IMG/VR virus record: IMGVR_UViG_3300030000_000058
Coordinates: 1 to 21,223 of that record
DNA from: a virus
Length of the DNA stretch: 21,223 nucleotides
Reading direction: 5' to 3' (one strand)
Shown here: piece by piece, positions 7,556-21,223 of the stretch
Position numbering within the stretch: position 1 is the first letter of the stretch
How the letters are laid out: the number at the start of each line of letters is the position of its first letter
Program-made: the position numbers and the translations under genes
The notes under the pieces: model-generated
The model's database searches: none
What the model was told of the DNA's origin: nothing
What the model saw: the letters and a program-made list of their open reading frames with translations, nothing else

Positions 7556-9367
7556 TTAAACTAATGTTAGTATTTTTTTGATTACCATTGGTGCAAAAAT
7601 AGTTTCTGAATACAAATCTGTAGGATGTAGTCCGTCCCTTGTATATGCGGATAATGCAGTTGCACTTTCTAGGTGCATATTTGCCATATTAATCATGTCA
7701 AGATAAGGTATTGCGTAATAATTACAAACCTCTTTGATTGCATTGCAATAATCAATTAATGTTTTACCTAAATCATTATTACTATGCTGATTTCCACTTC
7801 CGCTTGCTTGATTTCTTGGAAGTGGAATAATAAATAAATAATTTATCAATGGATAATATTCAAATAAATTTTTAATACTTTTTGCTACTGAGAAGTATAA
7901 CGTTGGGATTTCCATGGTATTTAATAAAATATCTGAAATCGTTCCAAGTGGTGTTTCAAAATCCCAATCGTTTGTTCCTCCCGATACAATTGCAAAATCT
8001 GCTATTATACCACTATTATGCGCCCTAGTTATCATAGATGGAGTAGCAGTATTTTCTTGTCCCCAAACGCTATGGGGATACATAACATCTTTTCCAAATC
8101 CACTTGAAGCAACTGCATAATTTATATTTTTAGCCCCAGTAATTTGCTCTATGTAATAAGGATACATATTCGCCCAACTTGTATCCGTAATGCTATCTCC
8201 AAAATACAATATAGACTTTACACTAAACCAACTATTTTCTAAATCCTTTTTATATGCTAATGCGTAAAATCTTTCAGAATGTGTTGAAAGTGTAAAGTTT
8301 CCATTTGCTACGTTCCAACTATTATTCACAACGTCATTAAATATATCCACATTAATTGTGTCATTAACAACAGAACTTAACGAATTAATTGTAAATTTGT
8401 ATGCCGTTGAATTTGCACTATATGATAAGAAAAGATAAAATCCACCCGCAGAAATCGCACTAACATTAAAAGTTAGTGCGATATATGTTTCGTTATTATT
8501 TACTAATGAATATGTTGCTTCACTTGGATTTATTGTATTGCCATTAATCTCCATAGCGCCGGTAATTGTTGCATTAATATCACACTTTGCTTTAAATGAT
8601 ACAACGATTTTATTAATGACTACTCCGCCCTGTGGGACAAATGACATATCTGTTATTTTTAATGCATTATCGTGGGTTGTTGCATTCATTATTATTTCTT
8701 TTATATCAACGTCTGTGCTAATATCTTTTAGCTTATCTAATGATATTGTCTTCATCCCAACATTTCCATTAGTTAAATCATTTTTTACTTGACTATATCC
8801 AGCATCTCCCGTTCCACTAAAATACCACGATGTGCCATTCCAAGCGTAATTTCCTTTTCCGTTAGTACCATCTCCATCATTGCAATAGTAATACCAACCA
8901 ATAGTATTTCCTGTTGTTGGTAACGAAACGTAACCAATATTGCCTTTTGGTGTCATTACGTTTGTTACTTCGGATTTATTAGCTTTTAGTGAAACCTCTG
9001 CATTGGTTGCATCCAACTCGGTTTCGCTTACCTTTGTAAGTAAATTAGTATTTACTTCATTAATCAGTCCTTGTGTTTTGCTCCCGGAATAAGCCTGAGT
9101 AGTACTTGCAGTAGCGTCATTTATCCCGACTTTAGAGACAATAAGGGCTTGCATATCCGCAATAGTAGTTTTCAATTGTGCAATCAAATCAGTAACTTTC
9201 CCTACATCACCTTCCATAACTGGCGAATCAACCTTGTTCACATCCATTTTAAATACTGGCGGATGGTTATTCGGTATCGCTATTGTTCCAGTAATCATTT
9301 GATCTGTATCTAAATTTTCATACGCGCCAGTTAATTGTTGCATCTGTGCATTCGTCTGTACTGCCAT
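7556..9367 (-). CDS. Tail protein with SGNH/GDSL esterase domain
   Basis: The 603-aa protein has three parts. Residues 1-135 are helical and Thr/Gln-rich, likely attachment to the tail tip. Residues 140-190 carry a WYYYCNDGDGT...GNYAWNGTSWYF repeat-like segment common in phage fibres, followed by a beta-rich middle. Residues 385-603 are an SGNH hydrolase: block I GDSIT with nucleophile S392, block II SSGFG, block III GGTND with N466, and block V DGLHP with D578 and H581. All catalytic residues are present, so it is probably an active esterase that removes acyl groups from surface polysaccharide during adsorption. It follows the tail hub by 16 bases and has a GAGG ribosome binding site. Confidence 0.87.
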   Translation of the reverse strand: MAVQTNAQMQQLTGAYENLDTDQMITGTIAIPNNHPPVFKMDVNKVDSPVMEGDVGKVTDLIAQLKTTIADMQALIVSKVGINDATASTTQAYSGSKTQGLINEVNTNLLTKVSETELDATNAEVSLKANKSEVTNVMTPKGNIGYVSLPTTGNTIGWYYYCNDGDGTNGKGNYAWNGTSWYFSGTGDAGYSQVKNDLTNGNVGMKTISLDKLKDISTDVDIKEIIMNATTHDNALKITDMSFVPQGGVVINKIVVSFKAKCDINATITGAMEINGNTINPSEATYSLVNNNETYIALTFNVSAISAGGFYLFLSYSANSTAYKFTINSLSSVVNDTINVDIFNDVVNNSWNVANGNFTLSTHSERFYALAYKKDLENSWFSVKSILYFGDSITDTSWANMYPYYIEQITGAKNINYAVASSGFGKDVMYPHSVWGQENTATPSMITRAHNSGIIADFAIVSGGTNDWDFETPLGTISDILLNTMEIPTLYFSVAKSIKNLFEYYPLINYLFIIPLPRNQASGSGNQHSNNDLGKTLIDYCNAIKEVCNYYAIPYLDMINMANMHLESATALSAYTRDGLHPTDLYSETIFAPMVIKKILTLV

Positions 9368-9383: not shown

Positions 9384-11756
9384 CTACGATATTTCTGTTT
9401 TAGCTATTAACTTATCAACTAATGATTCAAGCTTTGATATCCGTTCCTCTTGCGATATTATCCTAGAATTTTGCATTTGAACCGTTGCAACCAAATCTGC
9501 GATAAGTTCTTCGTACCGTAATCCTTTTGCTAAAATTTCGTTATCATCATTTTCATCATCATTATATTTACTTTCAATATAAACGCCCCAATCGTCTAAT
9601 TGCATAGATTGCTTAACGTCTTGTGCGATAAATCCATGATGATATCTATCAGATGTACCGTTATTATACTTAAACTTTGATGCGATTAATGAATATATAA
9701 AATCAGAAGATTTTTGTAAATCTAAACTTTCTATGGAATTCTTTAAGTCCCTATCTGAGACTGAAACGGTTCCATCTGGTGTATATACGGTATTATTAAA
9801 TCTGTGTCCGCCAGTCGCCGTATAATTTATTCTAGCGGTTTGAACCATTGCACTTATCTGGCATATATAAGTATCTGGATTATTTGTATTATTAAAATTT
9901 AAACGAGTTCCATCTACGTACAAATATTTATCTTCTGCAATATTAGCACATACCAATTTACCGCCAAGAAGTGCCGACATTCCCTCTGTCTCAAACGCTC
10001 CATCTACGTGATGTTCATAGGCATAATATTGGCCAGAATACATTGTTGTTGATGACGTATCAGTTGCTGCTCCATTCTTATAACTTCCATTTAAATTTAT
10101 GATACTACTACTTCCTGGGGCAGAATTTGTTGCTATATTAATGGTTCCACCTATTGCATTAATGATTCCAGTAATAGTCGCATTAGTTGCTTTTAAATTG
10201 TTCAATATTGTGTTCCCTAAACTATCAACGCTAAAATTATCGCCAACCTTAAAGCTAGTCAATACCTTAATCCATTCCGCATTAATTCCGATTGCCGTTA
10301 AAACATTTGTAACAATATTTCCATTAGCATCCCACCCGCTTACTGGAACGCCGTCTTTCATAATGAAGAATCCATTTGAATTTGCCAAAGCAACAAAGCT
10401 TGATTGTGCGATTGTAGGTTTATTATGCATATAATAGATAGAACTACCATCTGATTGTAATATCGCCGTTGTATGCAAGCCGAATGCATTAGCAATGAGG
10501 TTTGTCATTTGCTTCACAGCTACATCATATGTGGAAATTTGCTTTACAGTTTCGGCTTTTGCTTTCAAAAATGCTACTGTAGCTTCTGTATTTCTATTTG
10601 AACTATTCTTGCCTGGACTTTGCGCCCCGCAACTAAAAGTACAATTTCCACCGATATTGAACTCAACATTCGTAAAAATTGTTACATAATTATTTCCATT
10701 AATTTCAACGATTCCTATATCTCCCGATTGTACAGTTGGATTGCAATCAGTTGGTGCAGATAACGGTCTAAATCTCATTCCAACACAAATACTTGCTACC
10801 ATATCAGCGATTATCTGTTCTTTTCCAGTTGTTAATGGATTATTTTGAATAGTTAAGACATAACCTTCTGCTCCGCTTAAGAATTCATCAAGTGAATCAT
10901 TAATTACTTTGATTCCAGTGATAACCACATCGTCAAGATCTACCGAATAACCATCGTAAAGAGACGTAATATGATGAAATTTTCCTAAGTCTGCAAAGGT
11001 ACCCGCGCTAATAATATCAGATGCCATATTTTCAAAAGTACCCGCACTAATAATATCTGTTGCGGGATTTGTAAATGTACCCGCACAAATACTATTTAAT
11101 CTATTCATTAATTCAATGTCATACCAAGCAAGTTTTAAATAATTATTTTCATCTAGCTTTACATAGTTGCAAGTCAACTGTGCGATATAATTAAGAACTT
11201 GCCTATCTGTCAGTTTCTTATCACTTGGAATTGTTACGTGAAAATTATAATTATTGAATGTTTGCGTTAATAGAATCAATCCATGTTTTAAAGCTACCGA
11301 ATTAACAATATTTAAAGCCGTATCTTCTGTAAATGAACCAGTATAAGTAGTATCGAAGTTATTTATATCATTCAATGCGACTAATGAAACTATACCACCC
11401 GCAAAGGCTTGTTTGTCTACCGTGTACTTACCTTTATTCACTTTTTCGATTGTTTGGTCATCTAATACTGTAAATACCCTTGTAGGGGAAAATACAGCGC
11501 CATCAAAATTATATTTATCGAATCTTCCATCAAAGTTATTCAACAAAATAGTAGCTTGACCAATTGCAACACTTCCAAGGTCAAACGAATTTGTATTAGA
11601 TGTATGTTCAGAAATTTTAAAACCTTGCTCTCCAACAAAATCATCCGGTGTCAATGTCAACGGTGCTGTTCCATCTGGAAAAGTTACAATGGATTCACTA
11701 TAAAAAGGCTTTCCAGAATGTATGTTATCTTTGAATTTCATACTTACATTATTCAT
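9384..11756 (-). CDS. Tail hub/receptor-binding protein with C-terminal S74 chaperone
   Basis: The 790-aa protein starts with a domain like tail-associated hub proteins of low-GC phages (residues 1-300; early sequence FKDNIHSGKPFYSESIVTFP). A 13-residue unit repeats three times at 223-261. The middle (400-650) is a beta-rich fibre with NAxGGTI-like strands. Residues 659-790 are a peptidase S74 intramolecular chaperone: SVSDRDLKNSI puts S667 and K672 five residues apart, the known catalytic spacing, followed by GFIAQDV, YEEL and a coiled-coil end. The chaperone should trimerise the fibre and cut itself off before S667. No endopeptidase domain was recognised. Ribosome binding site AAAGGTAGG. 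Confidence 0.85.
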   Translation of the reverse strand: MNNVSMKFKDNIHSGKPFYSESIVTFPDGTAPLTLTPDDFVGEQGFKISEHTSNTNSFDLGSVAIGQATILLNNFDGRFDKYNFDGAVFSPTRVFTVLDDQTIEKVNKGKYTVDKQAFAGGIVSLVALNDINNFDTTYTGSFTEDTALNIVNSVALKHGLILLTQTFNNYNFHVTIPSDKKLTDRQVLNYIAQLTCNYVKLDENNYLKLAWYDIELMNRLNSICAGTFTNPATDIISAGTFENMASDIISAGTFADLGKFHHITSLYDGYSVDLDDVVITGIKVINDSLDEFLSGAEGYVLTIQNNPLTTGKEQIIADMVASICVGMRFRPLSAPTDCNPTVQSGDIGIVEINGNNYVTIFTNVEFNIGGNCTFSCGAQSPGKNSSNRNTEATVAFLKAKAETVKQISTYDVAVKQMTNLIANAFGLHTTAILQSDGSSIYYMHNKPTIAQSSFVALANSNGFFIMKDGVPVSGWDANGNIVTNVLTAIGINAEWIKVLTSFKVGDNFSVDSLGNTILNNLKATNATITGIINAIGGTINIATNSAPGSSSIINLNGSYKNGAATDTSSTTMYSGQYYAYEHHVDGAFETEGMSALLGGKLVCANIAEDKYLYVDGTRLNFNNTNNPDTYICQISAMVQTARINYTATGGHRFNNTVYTPDGTVSVSDRDLKNSIESLDLQKSSDFIYSLIASKFKYNNGTSDRYHHGFIAQDVKQSMQLDDWGVYIESKYNDDENDDNEILAKGLRYEELIADLVATVQMQNSRIISQEERISKLESLVDKLIAKTEIS
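10974..11090 (-). repeat. Three 39-base in-frame repeats in the tail hub
   Basis: Three consecutive 13-codon units share the core (I)-x-AGTF-x(4)-D-I; GTACCCGC recurs every 39 bases on the plus strand at 10999, 11038 and 11077. The repeats are imperfect, with more synonymous and non-synonymous drift outside the AGTF core. They may form a short linker or shallow beta structure; they could also be a site of repeat-number variation. Confidence 0.7.
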
Positions 11757-17484: not shown

Positions 17485-17892
17485 TTAAACGGTATCATCA
17501 TCAGAAATGGTTCGACTATATCTTCCGACACGCTTTAAAATAGTCGCATCTGATAAATTATCAATTTTTGCGAATCCAAATATACGTTTGTAATACATCG
17601 TTTTCATTGCATCATCTGCTACCTTCGCAATACCTCGGCTAATAGATAATGCAGAATCCGTATTTGTATATATCTCGATTTTGATTGCAGAACCAACGGA
17701 AAGTTCGTCATTCTCTAAATTCGTTCCATTAATTGAATTATCAATCTGTTCAATTACTATTGTAGGGAATACTGTTGGGGCAATCGTTGGAGTTGCTGTT
17801 GAAAAATTATATTTCGTATACTTCTGTGCAACTAAATACTGTGTTATCAAATATTTTAATTTCGTATACACGATACTTTCCACATCAATCAT
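17485..17892 (-). CDS. Tail terminator protein
   Basis: The 135-aa protein begins MIDVESIVYTKLKYLITQYL and has the alternation of helix and strands (TVFPTIVIEQIDNS, GSAIKIEIYTNTD) of tail completion proteins that cap the tube and join it to the head. The start overlaps the end of the gp10-like gene by four bases (ATGA), indicating coupling. It lies directly before the major tail protein gene, the standard position. Family assignment is by position and general pattern, not by a diagnostic motif. Confidence 0.68.
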   Translation of the reverse strand: MIDVESIVYTKLKYLITQYLVAQKYTKYNFSTATPTIAPTVFPTIVIEQIDNSINGTNLENDELSVGSAIKIEIYTNTDSALSISRGIAKVADDAMKTMYYKRIFGFAKIDNLSDATILKRVGRYSRTISDDDTV

Positions 17893-18389
17893 TTAGCGAA
17901 TACCTCCTTCGCAATAGCATTTACTCTCTTTCGTAACTCAATGGCTGTTTCCCACATAAAAGGCTTTGATGGTTGACCTTGAGACCAAAACCATTGTCCA
18001 TCTTTTTCATAGAACCAACCCTTTTCACCGTGTTCGTTAACGTCATATTTCCAACTAATAAGTGAAGTCATTGGATGTGGATTTTCAGAACCTATTATCC
18101 CGAATCCGAATTCAACGAAAGGAGCCCACGCACAATCAGTATATGTGACCCATGTAGCACCATCTTTCGTACTTCCTTGATATTCTGTATCTAAACTAGA
18201 AATAAGTTCGCCACTGTAGATTGCGCCCTCTTCTGCTATGTTTACCCTTGCTATATATACGCCCTCTTCTGCCAATCGCTCAGCAAGAATCTTTGTTTTG
18301 TAATTTATTTCAGCCTTGAAGTTTTCGACTTCTTTAATTGCTTTTGTTATTTCAGCAACGGAAAATCCAAATGATATTACTTTTGCCAT
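17889..18389 (-). CDS. HK97 gp10-like neck protein
   Basis: I use the ATG at 18389 (AGGTGG ribosome binding site, one base after the upstream stop codon); the frame opening at 18428 would overlap the previous gene. The 166-aa product has the N-terminal helix (AKVISFGFSVAEITKAI), the long helix with LAERLAEEGVYIARVNI and the YSGELISSL segment followed by APFVEFGFG, all typical of HK97 gp10/putative tail component proteins. It forms part of the head-tail joining region. Tryptophan-rich GQWFWSQG near the C-terminus precedes the conserved PFMWET. Neighbours and order fit. Confidence 0.85.
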   Translation of the reverse strand: MAKVISFGFSVAEITKAIKEVENFKAEINYKTKILAERLAEEGVYIARVNIAEEGAIYSGELISSLDTEYQGSTKDGATWVTYTDCAWAPFVEFGFGIIGSENPHPMTSLISWKYDVNEHGEKGWFYEKDGQWFWSQGQPSKPFMWETAIELRKRVNAIAKEVFAK

Positions 18390-18390
18390 A

Positions 18391-18828
18391 TCATTCCACC
18401 TCATTCTTAGTAATCGCCTTGAGAGCAATTGTCAATGAATTAAGACTTTTAGCAACTGGGGCGGCGATTGAATAATCTGCACTATCCTTATTGGCTGTTC
18501 CATCCGCATTCAATATTGGAGTAGTTTCATACCATATAAGAGAAGTTTGTTTGATTGGTAATTTCATATTACAAGATGAAATAGTTCTGGTGAAATCAAG
18601 TGAAGTTCCAAAAACTGCTGTCTCTGAATCACCTTTTCCCGCCGAAATATTTGCTTTAAATAAAACTGGCGCTGAATATCCAGTTGTTACACCTTTTTCA
18701 ATCGGAACTTGAACACCATCAATGTCGACGTAAAGGATGTTTCCATTTTCATCTTTTTCGTATTCTATAATTTTTGCACCATAAAGGGCGTAATATAATG
18801 TTTGTTTGTTTCTTTCTAATGACCTCAT
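18391..18828 (-). CDS. Head closure (stopper) candidate
   Basis: The 145-aa product starts at the ATG at 18828 (ribosome binding site TAGGAG, 8 bases upstream) and begins MRSLERNKQTLYYALYG. It contains KDENGNILYVDIDG and PVLFKANISAGKG, features of a beta-rich phage structural protein frequent in Lachnospiraceae phages between the connector and gp10-like genes. This slot corresponds to the head-closure or stopper protein of HK97-like phages. A Trp-Tyr-Glu-Thr (WYETTP) element is present. I do not know a named family for certain. One base separates it from the gp10-like start. Confidence 0.65.
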   Translation of the reverse strand: MRSLERNKQTLYYALYGAKIIEYEKDENGNILYVDIDGVQVPIEKGVTTGYSAPVLFKANISAGKGDSETAVFGTSLDFTRTISSCNMKLPIKQTSLIWYETTPILNADGTANKDSADYSIAAPVAKSLNSLTIALKAITKNEVE

Positions 18829-18862
18829 ATTACACACTCCTAATCTTTAATAAAATAAGACG

Positions 18863-18931
18863 CTATGCTCTCCCAACCCCTTGCATATATAAATTAGCAT
18901 CTTTCCCTTGCGACATTTTACTGTCGCGCAT
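18863..18931 (-). CDS. 22-aa mini-ORF with 5' hairpin
   Basis: The frame starts at 18931 and ends at TAG 18865-18863, filling most of the gap between the Tad2-like gene and the head-closure gene. Composition is protein-like: MRDSKMSQGKDANLYMQGVG. The ribosome binding site (AAGATGG) is weak. A perfect 6-bp hairpin (GCGACA/TGTCGC, 18910-18927) spans codons 2 to 7. It may be a genuine micro-protein, or a translated leader, or chance. Confidence 0.35.
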   Translation of the reverse strand: MRDSKMSQGKDANLYMQGVGRA

Positions 18932-18943
18932 CCATCTTAATTA

Positions 18944-19177
18944 CTAAATAACTTTCCAATCCTCTGCAAGAGTATCGTTAACAGATGGTACCCAAGTACT
19001 CATAGTGTCATTGACATTTTTAATTGCAAAGAATGGATTCAGTTTCACTCGCCCGATTCCTCTATATGGAATTTCACAATCATTAATCTGCACAATCCAC
19101 ATATTTTTACCGTTCCAACCATTACGAGCAACTTTATTACCTTGCTTTAATTCTTCTAACGCTTTTCCAAAACTCAT
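18944..19177 (-). CDS. tad2: Tad2-like anti-Thoeris protein (DUF2829)
   Basis: The 77-aa protein has the whole DUF2829 pattern: MSFGKALEELKQGNKVARNG with GW immediately after, a central hydrophobic MWIV strand, and a C-terminal PFFAIKNV followed by WVPSVNDTLAEDW. DUF2829 proteins of the Tad2 group are oligomeric sponges that sequester cyclic ADP-ribose signals made by Thoeris TIR enzymes and so prevent abortive defence; some relatives also act on other cyclic nucleotides. Residues G-W at 20-21 and the terminal EDW are family-typical. It lies between the head-tail connector and the head-closure genes in the late operon, with a GGAG ribosome binding site. Identification is by recall of the family pattern; target molecule not testable here. 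Confidence 0.85.
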   Translation of the reverse strand: MSFGKALEELKQGNKVARNGWNGKNMWIVQINDCEIPYRGIGRVKLNPFFAIKNVNDTMSTWVPSVNDTLAEDWKVI

Positions 19178-19195
19178 AATTGCTCCATTTCTAAA

Positions 19196-19510
19196 TTACA
19201 GTGTTCCAACAATAGTTACGATTCCATCAAGGAAACTAGAAGGGATTCCCGCACTTTCATATCCACGATTTGTACCGTTTTCATTATGGCTTTTTTCACC
19301 TTCACTGCCTTTTCGATTATAAAGGTATGCCGCTATATCGAGTATTTCACTTTCATAATCGGCTAATATAATTGCCTTTTGTGCTTCTGTACAACCATAA
19401 GGTCTACGTGCTTTTACCACTGCTGAAACAGCACGGTTAAGCTTAAGGGTGAGATAATCATCTTCACCCTCGCCTAGTTCTATCTTGAGTTTTTCTAATA
19501 ATGATTCCAC
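19196..19510 (-). CDS. Head-tail connector (gp6-like adaptor)
   Basis: The start is uncertain: the frame opens with GTG at 19519, overlapping the AAGGTAGG ribosome binding site, while the GTG at 19510 is better spaced and is used here (104 aa). The mostly helical protein (LLEKLKIELGEGEDDYLTLKLNRA) matches the small adaptor that forms a ring under the portal. It lies 20 bases after the capsid gene stop and before the Tad2-like gene. A tyrosine-rich middle (AYLYNRKGSEG) is typical. Both candidate starts are GTG, unlike neighbouring genes. Confidence 0.72.
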   Translation of the reverse strand: MESLLEKLKIELGEGEDDYLTLKLNRAVSAVVKARRPYGCTEAQKAIILADYESEILDIAAYLYNRKGSEGEKSHNENGTNRGYESAGIPSSFLDGIVTIVGTL

Positions 19511-19530
19511 CCTTATCACCTACCTTTTAT

Positions 19531-20895
19531 TTAGGCTTTACATACAGCTTTAATTACAGCTGCAGCTACTGCCTTATAATCTGAATCAACTTCTGCGATA
19601 ACAACTTCATATCCAGTTGTAGTTACGAAATCAGCACCTTCTACATAAGCTGCCCAAGTTCTAAGACTTGTTCCATAGTTAGGAAGTGTTGCCCCAGTTG
19701 CTACAGCCTTAACTTTATAACTATTGCCAGCTCCTAAAGCTTCTGTTACTGCAAATACAGTTGTTCCAGTTGCTGTTCCGGCTACAGATGTTGCGGTCAA
19801 GAAGTCAAGTTCTGCGTTAACTTCTGTTGGAACTCCAACTCCAAGTAAGTACACTTCATCCATTCTTTCGAATGATGGAAGTACGATCATTGAAACGGTT
19901 GTTTCTGTCTCTACTGGAATAGCAGCTGTTGTAATTACAGTTACAGTAATTCCGTTATCAATAATTGAAACCTCAGCATTGGCATTCCCCATGAGAGTTC
20001 TTTCCTCTGGTGTTGTACCAAACCAAGTTTTTCCAAGTGTTCCTTCTGGTAAGAATGCAACAAAGCCATCTGGAACGAGTTGAATATCTGCAGCTGATTC
20101 ATCTTTTACAATTTTGTTATACACAAGAATTGTTAAGCTACATTTAGCAGCAATGAATGTCTTAAGCATAGGATCATCAAGGAAGATGTTAGCTGTTGAA
20201 TTCTGTGCTAAGATCGCGCTTTTAATTTGTTCACTCTCAAGCATCATATCGAAAGTAGTCTGATTCATAAGCATATACTTAGGAATTGAACCTTTCTTTG
20301 ATAATGCTCTCTTTACATCTTTGATATCAGATAATGGTTTAGCTGTTGTTGGATTGCTCCACTGAAATGTACCAGATAAATCTTTTCTGTTTGAAAGAGC
20401 CCAAGTGCCATCTCCATCATAGTTATATGAATAATCCACATCACCATCACTAATATAAATTGATGGACCACCAGATGTAGGAAATAACAATTGCATTCTC
20501 ATACGTTCTGGAACAACTCTAGCGCCTGAAACTAATGTATCAACATCACTATAAATATGTTTAAGCACTTCTTGTGCATATGGATCAGATGATTCTTGCA
20601 CTCTTAAAATTTCTTGCTGATCTTCTTCTGATACTGTCATAGACTCACGGAAGAATGCCATTTTCTGTTGATCGAATTTAAACCCTTTACGAGTTCTGAT
20701 TTTTGACTTAGCATCAAAAGTACTTGGTGCCAATGATACTGCAAGACCTTTGTGTGTTTTAATCCATTTAAGGTCTAATCCCATCTTTTTATCGCGTGGG
20801 AAAAATCCCTCACCTAAGTCTGCTATCTTATTACTTGCAGCTTCTGTCTGATTCAAAGCTACTGCTTTTGCTGTATAAATTGCTGATAAATTCAT
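19531..20895 (-). CDS. Major capsid protein, E type
   Basis: Started at the ATG at 20895 (GGAGGAAG ribosome binding site) the protein has 454 aa; the frame opening at 20946 overlaps the upstream gene. Features of the phage capsid E family are visible: an N-terminal helical arm, KWIKTHKGLAVSLAPSTFDA, an E-loop-like RTRKGFKFDQQKMAFFRES, and conserved VPERMRMQLLF and ILVYNK and FLPEGTLGKTWFGTTPEER segments. The E-type core ends near residue 355; about 100 further residues (AGTATGTTVFAVTEAL onward) form a Gly/Thr/Val-rich extension that may be an Ig-like or decoration domain. Alanine codons favour GCT, as in strongly expressed genes. Confidence 0.9.
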   Translation of the reverse strand: MNLSAIYTAKAVALNQTEAASNKIADLGEGFFPRDKKMGLDLKWIKTHKGLAVSLAPSTFDAKSKIRTRKGFKFDQQKMAFFRESMTVSEEDQQEILRVQESSDPYAQEVLKHIYSDVDTLVSGARVVPERMRMQLLFPTSGGPSIYISDGDVDYSYNYDGDGTWALSNRKDLSGTFQWSNPTTAKPLSDIKDVKRALSKKGSIPKYMLMNQTTFDMMLESEQIKSAILAQNSTANIFLDDPMLKTFIAAKCSLTILVYNKIVKDESAADIQLVPDGFVAFLPEGTLGKTWFGTTPEERTLMGNANAEVSIIDNGITVTVITTAAIPVETETTVSMIVLPSFERMDEVYLLGVGVPTEVNAELDFLTATSVAGTATGTTVFAVTEALGAGNSYKVKAVATGATLPNYGTSLRTWAAYVEGADFVTTTGYEVVIAEVDSDYKAVAAAVIKAVCKA

Positions 20896-20908
20896 AATTT
20901 CTTCCTCC

Positions 20909-21223
20909 TTATTCCCAGATAACCATAGGTAGTTTTGTTTTGACACTTGCGTTAATTGTTAATCCACTGTTTGAAGCTACAATCGCACTATTCAAATAGC
21001 CTTTTACGATTAATGCGCCTTGTGGACATACTGCATATACATCTCTTAGCAAGATTCCGATAGCAGCCGATGTAGCACCATTATCAATAGTTCCTAACGT
21101 TGTAATTGGTGTACCGGCCTTGCATACTCCATTTGTAAAAGCTGTTGAATCTAAGGTTCTTGGAATTGCTTCAAAACCCGCTCTTTTTAAAATGTTTACT
21201 TCATCTGCTACTGTTGTTTGGGT
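20909..21223 (-). CDS. Head decoration protein, N-terminus outside window
   Basis: A reading frame is open from the right edge to TAA 20911-20909, giving 104 C-terminal residues. The segments AGFEAIPRTLD, AGTPITTLGTIDNGA, GILLRDVYAV and ALIVKGYLN match the short beta-rich decoration proteins usually encoded just before the capsid gene in this phage type. It ends 13 bases before the capsid start. The N-terminus and start lie beyond the window. Confidence 0.75.
   Translation of the reverse strand, partial: TQTTVADEVNILKRAGFEAIPRTLDSTAFTNGVCKAGTPITTLGTIDNGATSAAIGILLRDVYAVCPQGALIVKGYLNSAIVASNSGLTINASVKTKLPMVIWE

Follow-up and report, generated by a model that had tools for sequence, protein, structure and literature searches.

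Results

The window, i.e., the whole stretch of 21,223 nucleotides analyzed here (IMG/VR record IMGVR_UViG_3300030000_000058), contains a head-neck operon in which the genes for the major capsid protein (MCP), the connector, a Tad2-like protein (tad2), a putative head closure protein, neck1, and the terminator follow one another in that order, all on the minus strand (Table 1). A sequence-only reading had placed a Tad2-like gene between the connector and head-closure genes and had expected it to be expressed late with the structural genes. The gene and its neighbors were found as described, with the correction that the gene lies on the minus strand. The "head closure" gene is named by gene order only: its product matched no family in Pfam or PHROGs and gave a low-confidence model (pLDDT 37). 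The C-terminal S-layer SbsC-like domain of the MCP (PF18316, residues 388–466) possibly serves in surface decoration. Elsewhere in the window, two tail-region proteins are encoded on the minus strand, one (7556–9367) with a C-terminal GDSL-like lipase/acylhydrolase domain (PF13472) that possibly acts on host surface sugars, and one (9384–11756) with a peptidase S74 intramolecular chaperone domain (PF13884) near its C-terminus.

Table 1. Features in and around the tad2 gene, in window positions.
Feature	Position	Strand	Basis
Major capsid protein E with C-terminal SbsC-like domain	19531..20946	-	PF03864 143 bits, PF18316 45 bits
gp6-like head-tail connector	19196..19519	-	PF05135 29.7 bits, phrog_132
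255-bp segment present in the window, absent in L086	18936..19190	-	Side-by-side reading of sequences; bounded by near-repeat TAATTTAG / TAATTAAG
Shine-Dalgarno-like GGAG, 5 nt before the tad2 ATG	19183..19186	-	Sequence
Tad2-like (PF11195) gene, 77 aa, short form	18944..19177	-	Pfam, PDB sequence and fold matches, dN/dS
Remnant of 34-aa orphan ORF	18838..18935	-	Translations; frameshifted in the window
Putative head closure protein, 145–148 aa (ATG start probably 18828)	18391..18837	-	Gene order only
Tail completion / Neck1 protein	17889..18428	-	phrog_5, E 9.8e-9
Tail terminator	17485..17892	-	phrog_78, E 2.5e-4

The tad2 product matches the PF11195 profile over its full length (positions 1–73 of 73) with 87.5 bits against a curated cut-off of 25 bits (E 8.8e-25). 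In a PDB sequence search, solved Tad2 chains matched it with E values from 5e-18 to 2e-11, the best being the ModTad2 entries 8v3e and 9eib (E 5e-18), with SPO1 gp34.65 at E ∼2e-14 and AcrIIA7/HgmTad2 at E 2e-11. Compared with the 96% identical gene of a second contig (L003), 16 base changes produce just 3 residue changes (dN 0.016, dS 0.353), and compared with the 74% identical gene of a different phage (L004), dN is 0.153 and dS 1.82; the resulting dN/dS ratios of ∼0.05 and ∼0.08 show that tad2 is under purifying selection. Because it combines an ATG start and a GGAG ribosome-binding site with a full-length Pfam match, PDB Tad2 matches, and purifying selection, tad2 is a genuine gene under selection rather than an ORF that arose by chance, and it adds one short-form member to the known Tad2 family. 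A genome scan returned proteobacterial loci only, at 45–51% identity.

The connector-tad2 gap is 18 nt long, promoter-like sites beside tad2 are no more frequent than expected by chance, and a search for terminator-like sites beside the gene found none; for these reasons, late co-transcription with the capsid genes, as the sequence-only reading had supposed, is likely. The base composition of tad2 is not deviant: its GC content is 35.5%, that of the window 35.4%, and that of the late region 37.6%. The same gene order recurs in two further contigs, L002 (tad2 100% identical) and L003, so the placement of tad2 is not an assembly chimera.

A closely related contig, L086 (IMGVR_UViG_3300030294_000194), carries the same operon, with MCP, connector, and closure proteins 96%, 86%, and 87% identical to those of the window, and lacks tad2 both between connector and closure and anywhere else in its 19.7-kb record. 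Where L086 reads TAATTTAG-ATGGATGCG, the window reads TAATTTAG, then 255 bp with tad2 (19190–18936), then ATGGATGCG, and the end of the 255-bp segment, TAATTAAG, matches TAATTTAG in 7 of 8 letters. The connector, closure-position, and neck1 genes follow one another with nothing between them in Enterococcus phage EH-TP1 and Brevibacillus phage Osiris, and this closed connector-closure junction favors a gain of tad2 rather than its loss in L086. As in a moron, tad2 is a single gene that separates two genes lying next to each other in relatives (L086 and annotated ones), but it has neither a promoter and terminator of its own nor a base composition unlike that of its neighbors.

In L004, the Tad2 gene lies in another slot, between neck1 and terminator, and the connector-closure gap (L004 2635–3979) holds a metallophosphoesterase gene and a dATP/dGTP diphosphohydrolase-like gene. 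Because of this other slot and these two accessory genes, the neck region of the window's phage group seems to be a hot spot that tolerates several accessory genes. Since tad2 is absent from L086 and differently placed in L004, head assembly would not need it; judged from these arrangements, tad2 is an optional accessory gene and not an obligatory virion part. A further small gene was seen in L086 (3410–3619), where a 69-aa cysteine-rich protein that matched nothing in Pfam is encoded between closure and neck1.

The segment following tad2 contains the frameshifted remnant of a 34-aa orphan ORF (MDAWYKDVPQGKDANLYARGWESVASYFIKDWSV), which is intact in L086 (2904–3008) after the connector gene and which in L003 (6232–6340) follows tad2 and differs at the N-terminus. 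A search of the viral collection for its codon pattern returned a single entry, L090, which is the L086 contig again. The possibility that this ORF is a remnant of Tad2 was rejected, as 94 of 489 shuffles scored equally well. An RNA element in the 106-nt gap 3′ of tad2 was likewise rejected: there was no Rfam match, the fold z was −2.1, and the frames of relatives show the decayed 34-aa ORF.

A single-chain AlphaFold2 model of the window protein, built on 48 homologues, had a pLDDT of 95. All 24 PDB fold matches at E≤0.001 were Tad2 entries, with ModTad2 in its His-ADPR-bound and apo forms ranking first (best E 6.5e-9) and query-normalized TM scores to Tad2 entries of 0.73–0.81; the named matches in a viral structure library were of the Tad2 family too. 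Thirteen positions are invariant among the 48 homologues (F3, A6, R18, G20, W21, N22, G23, W62, V63, P64, S65, D68, and D73), and both the RxGWNGK motif (RNGWNGK, 18–24) and the WVPSVND motif (62–68) are intact. The gcADPR pocket is formed in one subunit by loop β1-β2, loop β3-β4, and strand β4, and in the other by loop β1-β2, loop β4-α3, and helix α3 (PMC12043709). R18, G20, W21, N22, G23, W62, S65, D68, and D73 would lie in or beside the β1-β2 and β4-α3 pocket loops, a placement made from that review (PMC12043709) and predicted secondary structure and not from ligand-bound coordinates. The predicted structure and its pocket motifs agree with the Tad2 assignment made from the sequence. By alignment, the central hairpin region falls ∼7 residues short of that of SPO1 Tad2 and ModTad2, a difference that could affect part of the pocket or of the tetramer interface.

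Of 76 dereplicated IMG/VR loci, at least 16 hold the Tad2-like gene within a head module, defined by head or packaging genes flanking it on each side; most of these genes immediately precede the scaffold or MCP gene, and 16 is a lower bound. The codon-based ORF caller used for the loci recovered tad2 in 111 of 119. Head modules make up roughly between a fifth and a quarter of phage genomes of this kind, so the share is comparable to that expected from random placement and no enrichment is claimed. Named phages vary similarly. The Tad2-like gene lies between the minor head and scaffold genes in SpaA1, between a head morphogenesis gene and the gene preceding MCP in phiAH14a, and between a post-terminase gene and MCP in Vibrio 1.205.O; it lies between holin and endolysin in an R. 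gnavus phage, between lysis and terminase genes in Kapi1 and CBW1004C-Prop1, after the lysis genes in Louie, and in non-structural regions in SPO1, D6, and Flyfo. The location is thus not exceptional, contrary to the sequence-only reading.

Within the tree clade around the window (support 99/95), four of six rows belong to head modules, and in a fifth, L137, tad2 comes directly after a portal gene; when compared with the other loci, head-module placement gives Fisher p-values (0.016 counting four, 0.002 counting five) that are too small because of shared descent and the incomplete annotation of the other loci. In L108, tad2 (73 aa) stands between a scaffold-like gene and MCP, 20 nt from the latter.

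Discussion

We consider it probable, on the strength of family, motifs, and gene context, that the window protein is a Tad2-type sponge for ADP-ribose-type signals, encoded by a selected accessory gene that is co-transcribed late with the capsid genes. A protein of this type would bind and hold the His-ADPR or gcADPR that the Thoeris TIR proteins of bacteria produce, and with the signal so held, the Thoeris effector would not be switched on. We infer both ligand binding and anti-Thoeris activity for the window protein. The gene may have entered, or been retained in, one of several gaps where the head-neck operon tolerates an extra gene; there, with a ribosome-binding site of its own and no recognizable promoter of its own, it would yield protein late, together with the capsid.

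The nature of the signal bears on the first alternative, that the Tad2 fold here serves as a sponge for another signal, such as the cyclic dinucleotides of CBASS, or as an AcrIIA7-type anti-CRISPR. Some Tad2 proteins do bind cyclic dinucleotides (PMC12043709), and HgmTad2, which was deposited as AcrIIA7, binds cGG. HgmTad2/AcrIIA7 and SptTad2 (PDB 8kbi-8kbm, 8wjd) share the fold of the window protein. However, cyclic-dinucleotide binding in Tad2 has been tied to a long insertion between β2 and β5 (PMC12043709), and by sequence, fold, and alignment, this insertion is absent from the window protein (77 aa, as compared to 101–104 aa in SptTad2 and HgmTad2, which have it); the pocket loop of HgmTad2 also differs (WLASQTD). 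SPO1 Tad2 (gp34.65; PDB 8sme-8smg, with gcADPR) resembles the window protein in fold, core motifs, and lack of the long insertion, and it does not bind 3′3′-cGAMP (PMC11722364). Because the insertion is absent and this insertion-less relative does not bind 3′3′-cGAMP, an ADP-ribose-type ligand appears the better guess, and we regard another signal or an anti-CRISPR function as improbable.

As to which ADP-ribose-type signal the predicted sponge would hold, the window protein is nearer, by both sequence and structure, to the His-ADPR binder ModTad2 (the anti-Thoeris 2 protein of a Myroides odoratus prophage; PDB 9eib with His-ADPR, 8v3e apo), its best match on both counts, than to the gcADPR binder SPO1 Tad2. 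It shares with ModTad2 the W-x-P-S-V-x-D loop, including V at residue 66, where SPO1 Tad2 (loop WVPSQTD) and HgmTad2 have Q, and it differs in the shorter central hairpins. On a tree of 106 sequences, the labels V66, Q66, and I66 were clustered (7 changes vs 37.5 in shuffles), and the window protein fell on the V66 side, in the same half as ModTad2. The deep branch that makes this split has a support of just 57/76, so a tree-based ligand assignment was dropped despite the clustering, and His-ADPR is a leaning and not a result.

A second alternative is that the protein is a Tad2 family member that no longer functions, its gene being a neutral passenger of the operon. A shortened hairpin region and the decay of the adjoining 34-aa ORF in the window genome would be in keeping with this, but the low dN/dS against both relatives and the retention of every motif residue argue against it, and we think it quite unlikely. 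That the window protein is instead part of the virion or of its assembly (as a decoration, neck protein, or scaffold helper) and reuses the Tad2 fold, the second role entertained in the sequence-only reading, is in our view very unlikely and found no support: its position between the connector and putative closure genes and the concentration of its clade at head and portal genes speak for it, but L086 does without tad2 in a nearly identical head operon, L004 carries it in another slot, the PDB fold matches at E≤0.001 are to Tad2 alone, and the pocket-loop residues are invariant.

If the protein is a Thoeris signal sponge, its timing becomes of interest. The phage MCP activates Thoeris cyclases of Staphylococcus and Streptococcus (PMC12578639), and because Thoeris sensors can be triggered in this way, co-expression of the sponge with the capsid could be useful. 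Where MCP is the trigger, a late sponge might still come early enough, and such timing could even be favored; a sponge encoded on the capsid message would rise with its trigger, so that a late anti-defense gene would need no second function. The option of a guard against late-triggered defense, also raised in the sequence-only reading, fits this picture by analogy with those sensors. Whether the linkage of tad2 to the capsid gene is adaptive is nonetheless speculative, and it may be neutral, as the share of at least 16 of 76 is comparable to that expected from random placement. The stronger proposition, that selection keeps Tad2-type sponges in the capsid transcription unit as an antidote rising with its trigger and that the window, L004, L108, and L125 represent one specialized lineage of this kind, we hold to be doubtful.

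Among named phages, a parallel in location is P7 of phage SpaA1 (NC_018277), a DUF2829 protein that is 44% identical to the window protein by alignment and is also encoded in the head operon, with its slot before the scaffold and coat genes rather than between connector and closure. The tad2 gene of SPO1, in contrast, is one of a series of small unnamed genes and is not part of a head operon. The anti-CRISPR genes of Pseudomonas Mu-like phages are, like tad2, anti-defense accessories that vary between close relatives; they occupy accessory regions at a constant place in genomes that are conserved elsewhere (PMC4378225). These regions have a deviant GC content, unlike tad2, which has that of its phage. 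Anti-Thoeris-type sponges are thus not confined to early accessory regions and recur as optional genes of head operons. Given that Thoeris can sense the capsid, it becomes a testable question whether a late, capsid-linked sponge is sufficient, or better, against a capsid-triggered defense.

The window gene also draws attention to the short form of Tad2 (73–78 aa). Tad2-like proteins of 150–180 aa are common in phages (L082, L098, L106, L079, L099, L078, and L081); the N-terminal 75–90 aa of long phage Tad2-like proteins have no Pfam match, and in L096 this part is a crAss001_48-like domain.
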